Source: Arthrobacter crystallopoietes (lineage in GTDB: Bacteria > Actinomycetota > Actinomycetes > Actinomycetales > Micrococcaceae). From it: a stretch of DNA of 64,000 nucleotides. Below the pieces are notes generated by a model that was not told the origin of the DNA, ran no database searches, and was given only the letters and a program-made list of their open reading frames with translations. The stretch is from the NCBI RefSeq assembly GCF_002849715.1, contig NZ_CP018863.1, positions 620,001 through 684,000 of the forward strand. Reading direction: 5' to 3'. Positions 51,503-58,150 of this stretch are shown piece after piece. How positions within the stretch are numbered: position 1 is the stretch's first letter; each line of letters opens with the position of its first letter. Both the position numbers and the translations under genes were made by a program.

Positions 51503-52567
51503 TTATTTGGCGTTCGCGGCTTCCGCTGCGTCGGCAGCTTCGCCGAGCATCGGCAGGAACTCATCCAGTGCCCACGGCAGGCTCAGCGGAGAGGCGGCGG
51601 AGATGGACAGCGTCAGGGTGTTGTCCGAATCGGCAACCAACGCGTCATTTTCGACGGCGGGAATCTGGCTCAGCAGCGGATCCTCGATGACCTGCTGCTT
51701 GGTCTTGGCATCGGGTACCCAAGTGACGAAAATGTCCGATTCGAGCTCGTTGGCCTTTTCTGCGGACCACGGGATGAAGAACTCACCGGAGTCGCTGGTG
51801 CCTTCGGTGACGACGTCAGCCTGCTTCATGCCGATGCTGGTGAGGAACTTCGGACGGTTGTCGTTCATCGTGTAGACGTTGACGCCGTCGCCCTTGGCAG
51901 GCTCCAGATTGCCGTAGATAAACGACTTGCCGGCCAACTGCGGGTACTCGGACGCCTTGGCATCGATCGTCTGCTCGGTCTCGGCGACCAGCTTCTTGGC
52001 TTCCTCGGTCTTGCCCAGCGCCTCGCCGATCATCATCGTCGAATCCTGCCAGTCCGTGCCGTAGGCCAGTTCCGGGTAGGCCACCACCGGAGCGATCTTG
52101 CTCAGGGTGTCATAGTCTTCCTGGGTCAGGCCGGAGTACGCGGCCAGAATGACATCCGGGGTCAGCGCGGCAATCTCGTCAAAGGCGATGCCGTCGGCCT
52201 CGGAGTACAGCTTCGGGGCCTTCTCGGAACCAAGGGGAGCCCCGAGCTCCTCCAGCTTGGCATCCTTCCACGGCGTGGACTTGTTATCGTTACCGCCCCA
52301 CTCGACTGCAGGCATTCCGACGGGGACGACGCCGAGCGACAGTGCCACGTCGTCGTTCACCCAGGAAACCGTGGCCACGCGTTCGGGCTGCTCTTCGATG
52401 ACGGTCTCGCCGAAGGCATGCTCAATGGTCACCGGGAAGGCGTCCGAAGACCCTGCGGCGGTTTCACCCCCTGTGGAACCATCGGCGGGACCGGTGGAAC
52501 AGGCGGATACGGACAGAAGAACGACGGCGGCTGCGGCAAGCATGCCGCGGACACGGGAAAGGGCCAC
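51503..52567 (-). CDS. Iron-siderophore ABC transporter substrate-binding lipoprotein
   Basis: Exported binding protein of 354 aa of the FepB/FecB/PeriBP_2 class. Start GTG 52567 follows GAGGAG at good spacing; the signal peptide ends in the lipobox VSAC. The mature protein carries FPVTIEHAFGETVIEEQPER, the usual family opening, and PDVILAAYSGLTQEDYDTLS. A DtxR box lies 32 bases upstream. Together with the permease/ATPase operon at 36-39 kb it would complete an iron-siderophore importer. Part of the longer open frame upstream is not coding. Confidence 0.94.
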   Translation of the reverse strand: MALSRVRGMLAAAAVVLLSVSACSTGPADGSTGGETAAGSSDAFPVTIEHAFGETVIEEQPERVATVSWVNDDVALSLGVVPVGMPAVEWGGNDNKSTPWKDAKLEELGAPLGSEKAPKLYSEADGIAFDEIAALTPDVILAAYSGLTQEDYDTLSKIAPVVAYPELAYGTDWQDSTMMIGEALGKTEEAKKLVAETEQTIDAKASEYPQLAGKSFIYGNLEPAKGDGVNVYTMNDNRPKFLTSIGMKQADVVTEGTSDSGEFFIPWSAEKANELESDIFVTWVPDAKTKQQVIEDPLLSQIPAVENDALVADSDNTLTLSISAASPLSLPWALDEFLPMLGEAADAAEAANAK

Positions 52568-52598
52568 GATGGGACTCCTCGGCTCAGAGGTAACGAAC

Positions 52599-52617
52599 AA
52601 AAGTAAGGGTAGCCTAT
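52599..52617. promoter_or_regulatory. DtxR/IdeR-type iron box (weaker)
   Basis: AAAAGTAAGGGTAGCCTAT, 13 of 19 matches to the DtxR consensus, with both half-site cores retained (GTAAGG and AGCCTA). Directly upstream of the siderophore-binding lipoprotein gene. Confidence 0.65.
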
Positions 52618-52670
52618 GCTTCGATTGAATAAGAAACAATCGCGTTACGTATTTATCGCAGTCGTTCCTG

Positions 52671-52700
52671 ACCTCACACAAACGTCGGGCCGCACGTTTG
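52671..52700 (+). promoter_or_regulatory. Candidate ECF-sigma promoter of ogt1
   Basis: ACCTCACA (52671-52678), 15 bases, then ACGTTTG (52694-52700), 38 bases before the ogt1 ATG. The same two blocks with identical spacing occur before the ECF sigma gene (53246-53275). CGT at the -10 side is typical of ECF promoters. A 7-bp inverted repeat CAAACGT/ACGTTTG overlaps the right block. Confidence 0.55.
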
Positions 52701-52738
52701 CGTATCGGAGATAATGGCGTTGTGGAAGGAGCGATCCC

Positions 52739-53239
52739 ATGCCCGCAGTGCATTCCGTCATCGATACACCCATCGGCGAGCTCACCCTCGTGGCAGTCGA
52801 CGGGTCCCTGACCGGCGCATATTTTCCCGCCCACAAGCGGATGCCGGATGCCGAAGCCTTCGGTCCCCGCGTGGACGCGGAGTTTGTCGAAGCCAAACGC
52901 CAGCTGTCGGAATATTTTGCCTGCAAGCGCACCGAGTTCGACCTGCCGCTGAATCCCAAGGGCGACGCGTTCCAGCAGAAAGTGTGGGATTTGCTCCGGC
53001 GGATTCCTTACGGCCAGACCCGCTCGTACGGCCAGCTCGCCCGGGAACTCGGTGACGCTCATCTTGCCCAGGCCGTCGGCAACGCCAATGGCCGCAACCC
53101 GATCTCGATTATTGTGCCGTGCCACCGGGTTGTGGGAGCAGACGGTCGGCTGGTGGGTTATGCCGGCGGACTTGAGCGCAAAAGGTTCCTGCTTGAGCTG
53201 GAGGAGCCTGTGGAAATCAAAACCGCCAAACTTTTCTAG
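52739..53239 (+). CDS. ogt: Methylated-DNA--protein-cysteine methyltransferase (ogt1)
   Basis: Suicide repair protein of 166 aa that takes alkyl groups from O6-alkylguanine. Acceptor Cys128 lies in VPCHRVVGADG; the DNA-binding helix QQKVWDLLRRIPYGQTRSYG and asparagine hinge NANGRNP are intact. GGAAGGAG precedes the ATG. It is the first gene of the alkylation repair island and is followed after 42 bases by the ECF sigma gene. Its own promoter appears to carry the motif shared with the sigma gene. Confidence 0.97.
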   Translation: MPAVHSVIDTPIGELTLVAVDGSLTGAYFPAHKRMPDAEAFGPRVDAEFVEAKRQLSEYFACKRTEFDLPLNPKGDAFQQKVWDLLRRIPYGQTRSYGQLARELGDAHLAQAVGNANGRNPISIIVPCHRVVGADGRLVGYAGGLERKRFLLELEEPVEIKTAKLF

Positions 53240-53245
53240 GACGTA

Positions 53246-53275
53246 ACCTCACATCATGAACTCCGGCAGCGTTTA
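53246..53275 (+). promoter_or_regulatory. Candidate autoregulated ECF-sigma promoter
   Basis: ACCTCACA (53246-53253), 15 bases, GCGTTTA (53269-53275). A start site 6-7 bases after the right block would fall at or beside the ATG at 53282, predicting a leaderless mRNA; this fits the lack of a Shine-Dalgarno before the sigma gene. Confidence 0.55.
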
Positions 53276-53281
53276 CACAGC

Positions 53282-53830
53282 ATGAAACCCTTCGAGCAGC
53301 TCGTCACCGAGCACGGCGCGATGGTCCTGCGGGTCTGCCGCGCCGTACTGGGACCGGACGAGGCCGAGGATGCCTGGTCCGAAACGTTCCTGTCCGCCCT
53401 CAAGGCCTACCCGGAGCTGCCCGAAGCGGCCAATACGGAGGCATGGCTGGTGACCATCGCGCACCGCAAAGCCATTGATGTCACCCGGAAACGGGCGCGC
53501 AATCCGGTGCCGGTGGAAGAGCTGCCCGAACGTCCTTCCGCCGACCCGCCGGAAGCAGACCAAGATCTGTGGGATGCGGTCAAGTCGCTTCCGGACCGGC
53601 AGCGGGAGGCCATCGCGTACCACTATCTGGCCGGCCTGCCCCACCGGGAGGTTGCCGCCATCACCGGTTCAACTCCGGAAGCAGTCCGGCGTGCGGCCTC
53701 GGACGGTATCAAGAACCTGCGGCGGATCTATTTGGCCCCGGACGCAGCGTCCGTGGCTCCGGTTCCCGTTCCGGTCGGTTCAGTGCCGGCTTCCACCTGC
53801 ATTTCCGTTCCGAAAGGAGGGGCCCGATGA
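53282..53830 (+). CDS. ECF-type RNA polymerase sigma factor
   Basis: Sigma-70 family factor of 182 aa. Region 2 spans residues about 10-75 (VLRVCRAVLGPDEAEDAWSE, NTEAWLVTIAHRKAIDVTRK) for -10 recognition; region 4 spans about 98-150 (SLPDRQREAIAYHYLAGLPH, STPEAVRRAASDGIKNLRRI) with the helix-turn-helix. A Pro/Val/Ala-rich tail with one Cys (residue 173) follows. The stop overlaps the start of ogt2 (ATGA), and no classical anti-sigma gene is nearby. Context (ogt1, ogt2, alkB, tag) points to control of alkylation repair; this is inference supported by a shared upstream motif. Confidence 0.93.
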   Translation: MKPFEQLVTEHGAMVLRVCRAVLGPDEAEDAWSETFLSALKAYPELPEAANTEAWLVTIAHRKAIDVTRKRARNPVPVEELPERPSADPPEADQDLWDAVKSLPDRQREAIAYHYLAGLPHREVAAITGSTPEAVRRAASDGIKNLRRIYLAPDAASVAPVPVPVGSVPASTCISVPKGGAR

Positions 53831-54444
53831 ACACCGTTGAACCGGAGTCCGCCGCCCTGCCGGCCCCGTTGCGGGCCGTTGATCCTGCCACGCTCCTCGC
53901 ACTGCGGACGCGGCTGGCGGCCGCTGCCGCCGAAGCCGGTTTGCTGGACTTGTCCTACACAACCCTGGACACTCCCATCGGCAAACTGCTGCTTGCCGCC
54001 ACCGACCAGGGCCTGGTCCGTGTCGCCTTCGACCGGGAAAACCACGACACCGTGCTGGAGCAGCTAGCGGACAGAATCAGCCCCCGCATCCTGTACTCCC
54101 CCGCCCGGCTGGAGGCCGCGGTGCGCCAACTGGACGAGTACTTCGCGGGGCACCGCCGAGCGTTCGAACTGCCGCTGGACTGGCGGCTGGCCAAAGGGTT
54201 CCGCCGCGAGGTGCTCGCCCACCTGCCGCAGATCGCCTATGGCCAGACCGAAAGCTACGCCCAGGTCGCCGCAGCCGCCGGCAACCCCAAGGCCGTGCGC
54301 GCGGTCGGCACCGCCTGCGGCACCAATCCCTTACCTGTCGTAGTTCCCTGCCATCGGGTGGTCCGCTCCGACGGCAGCTTCGGCGGCTATTTGGGCGGCA
54401 CCGAAGCCAAACAGATCCTGCTCACGCTGGAGGCAGCCGCTTGA
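53827..54444 (+). CDS. Methylated-DNA--protein-cysteine methyltransferase paralogue with N-terminal extension (ogt2)
   Basis: O6-alkylguanine methyltransferase of 205 aa. The acceptor Cys175 is present in VPCHRVVRSDG, with the helix FRREVLAHLPQIAYGQTESY. Residues 1-41 form an Ala/Leu-rich helical extension absent from ogt1, in which the common part starts at TTLDTPIG. It overlaps the sigma gene (ATGA) and is overlapped by alkB (TTGA), so the three are coupled. Its position matches that of an anti-sigma gene, raising the possibility of a sensor role in addition to repair. Confidence 0.94.
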   Translation: MNTVEPESAALPAPLRAVDPATLLALRTRLAAAAAEAGLLDLSYTTLDTPIGKLLLAATDQGLVRVAFDRENHDTVLEQLADRISPRILYSPARLEAAVRQLDEYFAGHRRAFELPLDWRLAKGFRREVLAHLPQIAYGQTESYAQVAAAAGNPKAVRAVGTACGTNPLPVVVPCHRVVRSDGSFGGYLGGTEAKQILLTLEAAA

Positions 54445-55115
54445 ACGCCCTCTTCGATCCTGTTCCGGCCGAACCAGTGGAGGTCGCTCCCGGCGCCGTC
54501 CATGTGCCCGGCTGGCTCAGCCTGGAACAGCAGGCCGAACTGGTGGATGCCTGCCGCACGTGGGGACGCGGTCCGGTGCCCTTCCGGGCCGCCAAGCTGC
54601 CAGGCGGGCATGAGATGAGCGTTCAAACCGTGTGCCTGGGGTGGCACTGGCAGCCCTACAAGTATTCCCGCGTGGCCGAGGATGCCGGTGGCGGCCGGGT
54701 GCTTGAGTTTCCCGAGTGGCTGGCCGGGTGGGGACGCAGGGCACTGATCGACGCCTACGGTCCTGAGGTGGCGGAGTCCGCGGCGGCGGCCTACAAACCC
54801 GACACGGCGCTCATCAACTTCTACGCTGATACCGCCAAAATGGGCATGCACCAGGACAAGGACGAGAAAACGGACCTGCCCGTGGTCTCCCTCAGCGTCG
54901 GAGACGACTGTCTCTTCCGCTTCGGCAACACGCAGACCCGCACCAAACCGTACACCGATCTCAGGCTCCGCTCCGGAGACCTGTTTGTCTTCGGCGGCCC
55001 CAGCCGCTTCGCCTACCACGGTGTACCCAAGATTTACCCCGGCACCGCCGATCCGGCCTGCGGACTGGCGTCGGGCCGGCTGAACCTCACAATGCGCGTC
55101 ACCGGCTTGGCCTGA
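54441..55115 (+). CDS. alkB: Alkylated DNA repair dioxygenase AlkB
   Basis: Fe(II)/2-oxoglutarate dioxygenase of 224 aa that oxidatively removes methyl groups from 1-methyladenine and 3-methylcytosine. Iron ligands His137 and Asp139 in MGMHQDKDE and His193 in RFAYHGVPK are present, as is RLNLTMR with the 2-oxoglutarate-binding Arg, and NFYADTAK of the substrate lid. Start is TTG overlapping the ogt2 stop. Located between ogt2 and tag. Confidence 0.96.
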   Translation: MNALFDPVPAEPVEVAPGAVHVPGWLSLEQQAELVDACRTWGRGPVPFRAAKLPGGHEMSVQTVCLGWHWQPYKYSRVAEDAGGGRVLEFPEWLAGWGRRALIDAYGPEVAESAAAAYKPDTALINFYADTAKMGMHQDKDEKTDLPVVSLSVGDDCLFRFGNTQTRTKPYTDLRLRSGDLFVFGGPSRFAYHGVPKIYPGTADPACGLASGRLNLTMRVTGLA

Positions 55116-55149
55116 CGGGCACCCGGACCGGCAGGAGACAATCGAACCC

Positions 55150-55752
55150 ATGGAAAAACTAACTTCCGGCGTCGTGCTTTGCGAAGACGGTCTGGCTCGG
55201 CCGGCGTGGGCCGCCGTGGACCCGATGCTGCGCGAGTATTACGACACCGAATGGGGCATGCCTGTCCACGGCGAGCAGGCCATCTACGAACGGATCAGTC
55301 TGGAAGGATTCCAGGCCGGGCTGTCCTGGGCCACCATCCTGCGCAAGCGTCCCGCCTTCCGCGAGGCCTTCAAAGACTTCCAGCCGGACACGGTTGCCGC
55401 TTTCACCGACGCCGATGTCGAGCGCCTGATGCAGAACGCCGGGATTGTGCGCAACCGCGCGAAGATCACCGCCGCGATCACCAATGCCAAGGCGACCATC
55501 GCCCTGCGCGAGGACGGCGGGCTGGACGAGTTCGTCTGGTCTTTCAAACCGGACGCCACTCCGGCACCCCAAAGCCTGGAGCAGGTCCCGACCACGTCCA
55601 CGGAGTCCATCGCCTTGTCCAAGGCCTTGCGCAAGCGCGGGTTCGTCTTTGTCGGCCCCACCACCATGTTCGCGCTGATGGAAGCCATCGGCATGATCGA
55701 CACCCACCTGGTGGACAGCCACCGGCGCGGCAGTTCCGGAATATGGGGCTGA
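55150..55752 (+). CDS. tag: DNA-3-methyladenine glycosylase I (Tag family)
   Basis: Base-excision glycosylase of 200 aa for 3-methyladenine. Signature segments: YYDTEWGMPVHGEQAIYERI, GFQAGLSWATILRKRPAFRE and NAGIVRNRAKI, with the catalytic region intact. In the E. coli enzyme zinc is held by two Cys and two His; here the corresponding positions appear as RPAW (no Cys), YYD (Tyr for His) and VDS (Ser for Cys), leaving only the His of DTHLVD, so a zinc-free variant is likely. AGGAG lies 12 bases upstream. Last gene of the sigma-led cluster, 34 bases after alkB. Confidence 0.93.
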   Translation: MEKLTSGVVLCEDGLARPAWAAVDPMLREYYDTEWGMPVHGEQAIYERISLEGFQAGLSWATILRKRPAFREAFKDFQPDTVAAFTDADVERLMQNAGIVRNRAKITAAITNAKATIALREDGGLDEFVWSFKPDATPAPQSLEQVPTTSTESIALSKALRKRGFVFVGPTTMFALMEAIGMIDTHLVDSHRRGSSGIWG

Positions 55753-55963
55753 AAAGCCGCCTTCCACGCAAACGGAAGGACCGCACCGAGCTTCCGCACC
55801 TACGGCTCCGGATTGCGGAACTGTCACAATTTTCCGCCGAATCACGGACCTGACAGCCCCGTGCCACAATGATTGCAGATGCCGGTGTCCGCGCCTGCAT
55901 CTGCCGGCCGGCAACGATGCCGCCCGGGCAAGACGTTGACACGTGCTGTTCGAAGGAGAAGTC

Positions 55964-56356
55964 GTGACCATACTTGTCGCCTACGCGCCGCGTCCGGAAG
56001 GCCGTGCCGCTCTATCCAAAGGTATCCAGATGGCCACCGCCCAGAACGAGAAGCTGGTCGTTGTTAATGCCAGCCCCGGGGGCCCGCATAAAGATTCCTC
56101 GCTGGCAGATACGCACGACGCCGAATGGGTCACCCGCGAGCTGAACAATTCCGGCCTGGACGCCGAATTCAAGCAGTTTGTCCGTGGCAAAGACGCCGTC
56201 GAGGAGATCCAGGAACTCGCCGAGAGCCTGCCGGCATCGTTGCTGGTCATCGGCCTGCGCAAGCGCACCCCGGTCGGCAAACTCATCATGGGCAGTACCG
56301 CCCAGGAAATCCTGCTCACCGTCGACTGCCCCGTGCTGGCGGTCAAAGCCCGCTAG
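55964..56356 (+). CDS. Universal stress protein (UspA family)
   Basis: Cytosolic protein of 130 aa with the UspA fold. GTG 55964 is chosen since GGAG lies just upstream and MTILVAYAPRPEGRAALSKG is the usual family start. The nucleotide-binding loop is GLRKRTPVGKLIMGSTAQEI and the last strand CPVLAVKAR, so ATP binding is likely. It directly abuts the alkA-like gene, whose GTG follows its stop without a gap. The 211 bases upstream contain no gene and presumably its promoter. Confidence 0.93.
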   Translation: MTILVAYAPRPEGRAALSKGIQMATAQNEKLVVVNASPGGPHKDSSLADTHDAEWVTRELNNSGLDAEFKQFVRGKDAVEEIQELAESLPASLLVIGLRKRTPVGKLIMGSTAQEILLTVDCPVLAVKAR

Positions 56357-57211
56357 GTGGAGGTCGCGCTGGAGGTCCTGCCTCCGTACGACGCCGGTGC
56401 GGCGCTGGCGGCCCTGGCCGCCCATGCCGTGCCGGGCCTCGAAACAACGGACCTCGCCGCCGGCACCCACACGCGGCTCTTCGCCACATCGTCCGGCCCG
56501 GTCGTCGGCACTGTGCGCTTGGGCCCCGGCGCTCCGTCGCTGGTGCTGGAATCAGTTGATCCCGCCACGAATGCCGAAATAACGACGGCGGTGCGGCGCT
56601 GGCTTGATCTGGACACGGACCCGGAAACGGTCCGCGGCGTACTGGGGCAAGATCCGCTGGTCGGTCCGCTCCTCGCAGCACGTCCGGGCCTTCGGATTCC
56701 CGGTTACCTGGACGGCTTCGAAGGAGCCGCCTGCACCGTCCTCGGCCAGCAGGTCTCGCTTGCGGCCGCACGGACCTTTGCGGGCAGGCTCGTCAGCGCT
56801 TTCGGCAGTCCCGGACCCGCCGGCCTGTACCTCTTCCCGACCCCATCCACCTTGGCAGGTGCCGGAGCCGAACGAATCCAGCAGGCAGTCGGACTCACCG
56901 GAGCCCGCTCGCGCACAATCCACGCCCTGGCAGTAGCCTGTGCCGACGGCCTGGCCATTGATCCGGAAGGCGACCATGCCGGGATCCGCCGGCGCCTGCT
57001 CGCGCTGCCCGGCATCGGCCCCTGGACCGTGGACTATCTGGCCATGCGTGCGCTCAGAGACCGAAATGCCTATCCGGAGGGCGATCTGGTACTCAAACGT
57101 GCCCTCGGTGCCAGCTCAGTCCAAGAGGTCCGCGCCCACGGCGAAGCCTGGCGTCCCTTGCGTGCCTACGCTGTCTTCCAGCTCTGGACTGCCGCCGCCT
57201 ATATTGCCTGA
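56357..57211 (+). CDS. alkA: DNA-3-methyladenine glycosylase II (AlkA-like)
   Basis: Base-excision glycosylase of 284 aa. An N-terminal AlkA_N-like domain (to about residue 115) is followed by the HhH-GPD domain: LGQQVSLAAARTFAGRLV, the helix-hairpin-helix LPGIGPWTVDYLAMRAL, and YPEGDLVLKRAL with the catalytic Asp. It is not fused to an AdaA domain, unlike many actinobacterial AdaA-AlkA proteins. Start GTG at the base after the usp stop. It completes a set of ogt, alkB, tag and alkA activities. Confidence 0.94.
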   Translation: MEVALEVLPPYDAGAALAALAAHAVPGLETTDLAAGTHTRLFATSSGPVVGTVRLGPGAPSLVLESVDPATNAEITTAVRRWLDLDTDPETVRGVLGQDPLVGPLLAARPGLRIPGYLDGFEGAACTVLGQQVSLAAARTFAGRLVSAFGSPGPAGLYLFPTPSTLAGAGAERIQQAVGLTGARSRTIHALAVACADGLAIDPEGDHAGIRRRLLALPGIGPWTVDYLAMRALRDRNAYPEGDLVLKRALGASSVQEVRAHGEAWRPLRAYAVFQLWTAAAYIA

Positions 57212-57223
57212 CGGCGTCCACTT

Positions 57224-58150
57224 TTAGGCGCCGGTGGAGCCAGCACGAACTCCTCGGGATCCGGCCTCCTCGATCCGCGGCAGCAGTTGCTCCGGGAGCT
57301 CGAGTTCCGCCGCTCCGAGATTGGTCTTCAGGTGCTCAGGCCTGACGGTGCCCACGACGGCGCTGGTAACGTTCTTGTTGTTGAGCACGAAGGCCAGGGC
57401 TATCTCACTGGCTTCGAGCCCTTCGACGTCGTTGATAAACCGGAACTTCCTACCATGGATGAACTTCGGCCGGTGGTTCTTCAGGGCACGGGCCAGATAC
57501 CACACGTCGCTGGGCGTCGTCAGCTTGAAGATGCTCCGCGAGTACAAAGTCTGGGCCAGCGGGGACTTGACCATAATCCCTACGCCCGCCTCCCCCGCCC
57601 TGGCCATGAGCGGCTCCATAGAACGGTCAAGGAGGTTGTATTCGAGCATCAAGGCCTCGAAGATGCCAAGCTTCAGCGCCCGTTTCGCGCCACCCGCTCC
57701 CGTAGACAGGCCCAGCGCTCCGATCATGCCCTTGTCCTTGAGCTTGAGGACCGTTTCGATGGCGGGATCGGCAGGGTGGGGATAGCCGTGGAAGTGCAGC
57801 AGGGGCAGGTGCTCCAGTTGCAGCCGCCTGAGACTCTCCTGCAGGCTCTGGTCAAGGGCGCGCGGCGAGAAGTCCTTCACGTTCCGGCCGCCGGCCCACA
57901 GGGAGCCGACCTTGGTGGAAATGACGAGGTCCCGCCCCCGGCCCTTGAGAATGCGGCCGAGGCGCACCTCGGCGTTGCCGCGGCTGTAGTTGGGGCCGGT
58001 ATCGAAAAGGTTGACGCCGCCGTCGAGGGCTTGCTCCACCAGACGTGCGGCCTGCCGTTCGTCAAAAGCCTTCATGCCCCAGTAGCCGCCGGCACCAAAA
58101 CTGATTTCGGACACTGACAGTCCGGATTTCCCAAGCCCCCGTCGTTTCAT
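57224..58150 (-). CDS. Aldo/keto reductase
   Basis: NADPH-dependent oxidoreductase of 308 aa with a TIM-barrel fold. The tetrad is visible: Asp and Tyr in NLFDTGPNYSRGNAEVRLG, Lys in VISTKVGSLW, and His in LLHFHGYPHP. AGGGGAG precedes the ATG. It lies 32 bases downstream of a sugar ABC permease in the same direction, so it may act on the imported carbohydrate or its derivative. Confidence 0.93.
   Translation of the reverse strand: MKRRGLGKSGLSVSEISFGAGGYWGMKAFDERQAARLVEQALDGGVNLFDTGPNYSRGNAEVRLGRILKGRGRDLVISTKVGSLWAGGRNVKDFSPRALDQSLQESLRRLQLEHLPLLHFHGYPHPADPAIETVLKLKDKGMIGALGLSTGAGGAKRALKLGIFEALMLEYNLLDRSMEPLMARAGEAGVGIMVKSPLAQTLYSRSIFKLTTPSDVWYLARALKNHRPKFIHGRKFRFINDVEGLEASEIALAFVLNNKNVTSAVVGTVRPEHLKTNLGAAELELPEQLLPRIEEAGSRGVRAGSTGA

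Follow-up and report, generated by a model that had tools for sequence, protein, structure and literature searches.

A conserved two-block motif in an actinobacterial alkylation-repair island is the probable autoregulated promoter of an ECF sigma factor

Between ogt1 and ogt2, the alkylation-repair island of Arthrobacter crystallopoietes encodes an ECF sigma factor. The island carries two copies of a two-block motif that is very probably the -35/-10 promoter of this sigma factor, which would itself recognise the motif. We analyzed a window of 64 kb, by which we mean the whole stretch of DNA under study. The island genes all lie on the plus strand. The first, ogt1 (52739..53239), encodes a methylated-DNA--protein-cysteine methyltransferase (Pfam PF01035 and PF02870; NCBIfam TIGR00589). 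It is followed by the ECF sigma factor gene (53282..53830; Pfam PF04542 and PF08281), which is predicted to be leaderless, and by ogt2 (53827..54444), which encodes an Ada-C-like alkyltransferase and overlaps the sigma stop codon (ATGA). The next gene (54441..55115) encodes an alkB-like 2OG-Fe(II) dioxygenase (Pfam PF13532; NCBIfam matches below cut-offs), and its TTG start overlaps the ogt2 stop, a layout which suggests that both genes are on the same transcript. The 3-methyladenine glycosylase gene tag (55150..55752; Pfam PF03352) lies 34 nt past alkB, without an exact motif copy of its own, and downstream of it Pfam identifies a Usp protein and then an AlkA-type glycosylase. The sigma factor scores 87.4 bits against TIGR02983 (SigE-fam_strep), below the curated cut-off of 141.55 bits. 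A Pfam scan of the 7 island proteins (52739-57208), sigma included, detected no anti-sigma factor. Ahead of the island, the stretch at 52601-52621 contains a DtxR/IdeR-like box. This stretch is conserved in three congeners and precedes a minus-strand gene (approximately 51503-52571) whose product resembles, on inspection, a siderophore-binding lipoprotein.

The motif pair had been reported in the first-pass annotation at 52671-52700 and 53246-53275. Rescanning the plus strand of the 64-kb window with ACCTCACA-N15-RCGTTTR returned both copies as exact matches and as the sole exact pair. When up to 2 mismatches were permitted, these were still the only 2 matches, compared to a mean of 0.17 in 100 shuffles, 1 of which reached 2. 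A 13-base core pattern with up to 3 mismatches gave 6 matches in the window vs 9.6 expected, and the exact ones were only the motif pair. The pair is real and far from chance. Upstream of ogt1, the -35 block is at 52671..52678 (ACCTCACA) and the -10 block at 52694..52700 (ACGTTTG), both supported by an alignment of 6 congener sequences in which CTCAC is conserved. Upstream of sigma, the -35 block is at 53246..53253 (ACCTCACA), as given by the motif scan and by relatives, and the -10 block, conserved in relatives, is at 53269..53275 (GCGTTTA). A standard sigma-70 promoter scan of 52400-57300 returned no promoter.

The genome-wide search that the annotation had suggested was run with CTCACR-N16-CGTYTRC and gave 3 exact matches in the home genome, namely the two window copies and one at contig position 391394. 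This third copy (3001-3029 of L136, contig 1 of the home genome) is intergenic, shortly past the stop of a lipoprotein-like gene and ahead of a short frame. DNA similarity to the three matching congeners (G003, G004, and G007) stops before it, and we set it aside as chance or private. The short frame behind it may encode a small membrane protein. A looser match at 550011 (CGTTTCC) recurs in the same three congeners; it falls within long open reading frames of either strand and was also set aside. The home genome has only two well-supported motif copies, both in the repair island, and a wider regulon was observed in relatives only, not in the home genome.

We then compared the upstream regions of sigma relatives collected from 59 related genomes (30 best loci kept) and from a genome collection (75 loci). 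The 105 loci, whose calls rely on tblastn starts, include 7 duplicates; 1 of the 98 distinct loci is too near a contig end, leaving 97 assessable. In 95 of these 97 loci, sigma or the ogt1-sigma operon stands behind CTCAC-N17-CGTY or a form one step away from it. The exact motif lies at most 130 nt upstream of sigma in 76 loci, 3 have CGA instead of CGT, and 1 has N18. Fifteen others have no copy for sigma itself, yet carry the motif ahead of the upstream ogt1, with an ogt1-sigma gap of less than 70 nt in 14 of them. Of the two remaining loci, 1 has a truncated ogt1 upstream and 1 (L091) is without the motif. When 104 loci were judged with spacers of 15-19 nt allowed and without deduplication, the spacer was 17 nt in 82 of the 83 matching loci. 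In 62 non-redundant sequences, information is found in an A/G at -2, in CTCACR, in the TT right after it and in CGTCTAC, while the 30 upstream columns and most of the spacer differ little from background; it rises again at the start codon.

A motif copy of its own is present before ogt1 in 31 of the 35 distinct loci with ogt1 upstream of sigma, and one more locus is truncated. No strict copy was found before ogt1 in the tested stretch of L042, L051, L054, and L060. Both L042 and L060 retain a CGTCTAC, and L054 has a shortened ogt1 frame with a motif copy ahead of that frame. At L103, where ogt1 and sigma are divergent, each has one motif copy, and the divergent ogt1 of L095 bears a copy as well. 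One contig labelled Melainabacteria (L071) carries an actinobacterial sigma locus, likely a binning error. This comparison was the one that the first-pass annotation had named as able to refute it, and both blocks and their spacing proved to be kept across Actinomycetota before sigma and before ogt1. The -10 block as first described is present in the window but is not the family form: the consensus is CGTCTAC, and the CGTTTA of the window is a minority form.

In the window, the C of the -10 CGT (53270) stands 12 nt before the sigma ATG (53282), and no Shine-Dalgarno sequence was seen before this ATG by inspection. The transcription start is predicted at or near 53282, the A of this ATG. In 69 of 76 loci, 10-13 nt separate the -10 C from the first in-frame sigma start (12 nt in 41, 10 nt in 24, 13 nt in 2, and 11 nt in 2), a choice of start that is biased towards short distances. 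The distance is 6-7 nt in three loci and more than 20 nt in four. In many loci the next start is found at 18-19 nt, which would leave a leader of just about 6-8 nt. Because of this narrow range of distances and of the very short leader left by the next choice, the sigma mRNA is most simply read as leaderless. In the related actinobacterium M. tuberculosis, extensive leaderless transcription has been reported (PMC3898074). For ogt1 of the window, 44 nt separate the C of the -10 from the ATG, and a ribosome site, GGAAGGAG, is found 7 nt ahead of this ATG. With a start predicted around 52705-52708, its mRNA would have a leader of approximately 31-34 nt including the ribosome site. The leaderless layout that the initial annotation predicted for sigma is retained for sigma only, ogt1 being predicted to be leadered. 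The likeness to ECF promoters that it had pointed out is borne out by the spacer length, the CGTC-type -10 and the near-fixed distance to the start codon.

According to our model, sigma would direct RNA polymerase both to its own gene and to ogt1. The mRNA from the sigma gene would be leaderless and would run on into ogt2, alkB, and probably tag, and that from ogt1 would be leadered. Direct recognition of the motif by sigma would make it autoregulated, and this positive loop would raise alkylation repair. Methylating agents would presumably induce the system, and the signal may enter via Ogt2, whose methylated form would signal damage. Ogt2 appears to be the likeliest sensor or partner of sigma because of its conserved PCHR cysteine and its translational coupling to sigma. 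A contact between the two proteins is plausible, since C-Ada19 provides the interaction site of Ada with RNA polymerase (PMC4437013). One form that this could take is a two-gene methylation switch in which Ogt2 binds sigma, and suicide methylation of the PCHR cysteine releases or activates it. We propose this switch tentatively and regard it as rather doubtful. If true, it would give Actinomycetota an adaptive response equivalent to that of Ada, with sigma in place of the Ada DNA-binding domain; in some lineages, its trans regulon would include Oxygenase-NA, RecO, an SDR enzyme, and an Ada_Zn-like protein.

It is a serious possibility, if short of probable, that Ogt2 is a mere repair target, with sigma active at all times and its transcription as the limiting factor. 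This alternative bears on the input step and does not conflict with the reading of the promoter by sigma. It is consistent with the conserved neighbours of some ECF groups, such as ECF41, which are targets and not regulators (PMC3426412). The tight pairing of the two genes argues against it. At 89 of 100 called loci, the ogt2 start and the sigma stop overlap (ATGA or GTGA, overlap -1), and all 100 retain PCHR, duplicates included in both counts. Counting duplicates, ogt2 follows sigma in 102 of the 103 loci that could be judged, L095 and L102 being cut off inside sigma. The one departure is L014 (G051), whose ogt2 is located elsewhere with its own motif (L140). Conversely, an ogt2 match of at least 200 bits was found in 77 of 297 genomes, of which 74 have sigma, adjacent by our rule in 72; the rule missed G154, where the sigma match is in two pieces, and G051 is unlinked. 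Furthermore, Ogt2 scores higher with the Ada model (104.0 bits) than with the Ogt model (81.6 bits) of NCBIfam, and the reverse is seen for ogt1 (99.2 and 109.9 bits, respectively), all four scores being below the curated equivalog cut-offs. Among 105 loci, we found no sigma-ogt2 gene fusion.

The N-terminal extension of Ogt2 could also bear on this question. A confident structure prediction (mean pLDDT 93.4) places a helix at residues 20-36, and its pattern (L26, L30, and A34) is present at 96-98% of the aligned rows, and in 61-63 of 63 rows by column counts. No such pattern could be made out in the divergent L029 and L030, which weakens the idea of a universal sigma contact and favours Ogt2 as a mere target.

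The three genomes with a strong ogt2 match but without sigma are G290, G065 (88% complete), and G069, where the sole sigma-like match is weak and located elsewhere (E 5.5e-13). No motif copy was found before ogt2 in any of the three. In G290 (L192), one loose CGA-type match lies about 400 nt upstream. In G069 (L194), ogt1, ogt2, and tag are kept while sigma has been lost between ogt1 and ogt2, leaving an apparent short remnant; the coding strand of this 4.5 kb contains no motif.

We considered it highly improbable that the blocks are the site of another regulator co-controlling ogt1 and sigma, and not a promoter read by sigma. An inverted repeat, CAAACGT-N8-ACGTTTG (52679-52700), overlaps the ogt1 promoter copy and would suit such a regulator. 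However, this repeat is not kept in congeners, where the two blocks are, and it was rejected as an operator. The near-constant spacer, the CGTC-type -10 and the distance to the start codon described above are promoter geometry, and the layout equals that of the ECF41 promoter, TGTCACA-n16-CGTC (PMC3426412).

Reading of the motif by sigma is further supported by copies located away from the sigma gene. G036 has such a copy (L138) ahead of an ogt1 homologue with 61% identity to ogt1, while its sigma gene is on another contig. The copies of G094 (L171) and G051 (L140) stand before a further ogt1 homologue and an ogt2 homologue (68%), respectively. We scanned 297 genomes of the order with a strict pattern, CTCACRTTY-N13-CGTYTWC, and obtained 36 matches in 27 genomes, compared to 0 for the reversed-pattern control. 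With a presence threshold of E <= 1e-18, sigma is borne by 24 of these 27 genomes vs 98 of the 297 overall (Fisher 4e-10, a test whose values overstate independence here, as sigma loci share ancestry). The strict pattern was found in 24 of the 98 sigma-bearing genomes and is absent from the home genome; requiring RTTY after CTCAC makes it specific yet insensitive. Its 33 matches in sigma-bearing genomes lie before sigma (13), ogt1 (5), SDR oxidoreductases (2), RecO (2; L175 by Pfam and L186 by likeness), and an Ada_Zn_binding protein (1), and 10 are at genes or stretches that could not be tied to repair. No recognised gene was found behind the 3 matches in genomes without sigma. The looser CTCACR-N16-CGTYTNC gave many matches in 58 relatives, only moderately above the reversed control, which was of similar order in many of these genomes; the matches look like chance, and this pattern is not specific genome-wide.

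With a near-identical pattern, 396 genomes from across the phylum, most of them distant, yielded 7 matches. Two are at sigma with a divergent ogt1 also bearing a copy (L150 and L152), L156 is at ogt1 and L151 at Oxygenase-NA, and three have no assigned gene (L153-L155). Oxygenase-NA (PF09859), which acts on damaged DNA according to its Pfam description, likewise stands behind the motif at two loci of Amycolatopsis, L033 (identified by Pfam) and L048 (by likeness). Related SDR oxidoreductases stand behind the motif at L137, L162, and L167, in three genomes of two families, and may be an unexpected regulon member; identity is 58% between the L137 and L167 proteins, which come from different families. 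In G209, a small protein with an Ada_Zn_binding-like domain (2475-2738 of L187) lies behind a strict motif copy, and similar weak PF02805 matches occur in several further genomes, mostly sigma-bearing. Oxygenase-NA, SDR, RecO, and the Ada_Zn-like protein are candidate members of the regulon. The sigma-specific regulon suggested by the first reading of the window gains support from the unlinked copies at ogt1 and ogt2, from the co-occurrence of motif and sigma, and from the lack of a copy before ogt2 in the three genomes without sigma. The home genome has 9 matches to sigma at E <= 0.001, sigma itself included, so other ECF factors are present, but the tracking of sigma by the strict motif and the same lack of a copy make it extremely unlikely that a different ECF sigma factor of the cell reads this promoter.

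The sigma factor described here is probably a member of ECF122. For this group (Casas-Pastor et al. 2021, as cited in PMC8999054), 6-O-methylguanine DNA methyltransferases are conserved neighbours, in line with the alkyltransferase that follows sigma here at all judgeable loci except one. ECF122 is listed among the groups without a cognate anti-sigma factor (PMC8999054), and the Pfam scan of the 7 proteins of the home island agrees with this. It is also listed among the groups whose regulation awaits characterisation, and the passage concerned gives no mechanism, promoter, or targets (PMC8999054). No other paper of the literature set searched mentions ECF122. Among the listed titles and first lines of abstracts on sigma factors with alkylation or methyltransferase, none describes this promoter or regulon; the ECF122 classification paper may already show the promoter logo.

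The promoter of ECF41, tied to ECF41 sigma factors by 5'RACE and reporter data, shares the TCAC...CGTC frame and spacing with the promoter described here, and ECF41 has few targets, mostly neighbouring genes (PMC3426412). In contrast to its TGTCACA, the -35 is ACCTCACA or ACCTCACR in the window and CTCACR in relatives, and our sigma factor (182 aa) has only Sigma70_r2 and r4 by Pfam, without the SnoaL-like C-terminal extension. Because the -35 and the domain layout differ, this sigma is not an ECF41 member.

The proposed system also resembles the Ada response of E. coli Ada and Caulobacter Cada2 in being an auto-amplified alkylation-repair regulon (PMC4437013, PMC10957082), and Ogt2 resembles the C-terminal domain of Ada, which is said to contact RNA polymerase (PMC4437013). 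Here the switch would be a sigma factor, and the home genome (G000) has no match to Ada_Zn_binding (PF02805). Sigma and a full Ada occur together in 15 genomes vs 37.9 expected of 297 (p 3e-9), a count that left out 8 of 106 sigma genomes with weak matches (E above 1e-18) and 7 of 122 genomes with weak PF02805 matches. Among 58 close relatives, 3 of the 13 Ada genomes have sigma (p 0.027). At the genus level the effect is not significant (13 of 95 genera with both, p 0.20), and we rejected sigma as a mutually exclusive replacement of Ada; avoidance between the two is weak and suggestive only. Taken together, the promoter, the leaderless design, the tight sigma-ogt2 pairing and the candidate regulon turn ECF122 into a testable hypothesis: a sigma-run adaptive alkylation response in bacteria, many of which are without Ada.
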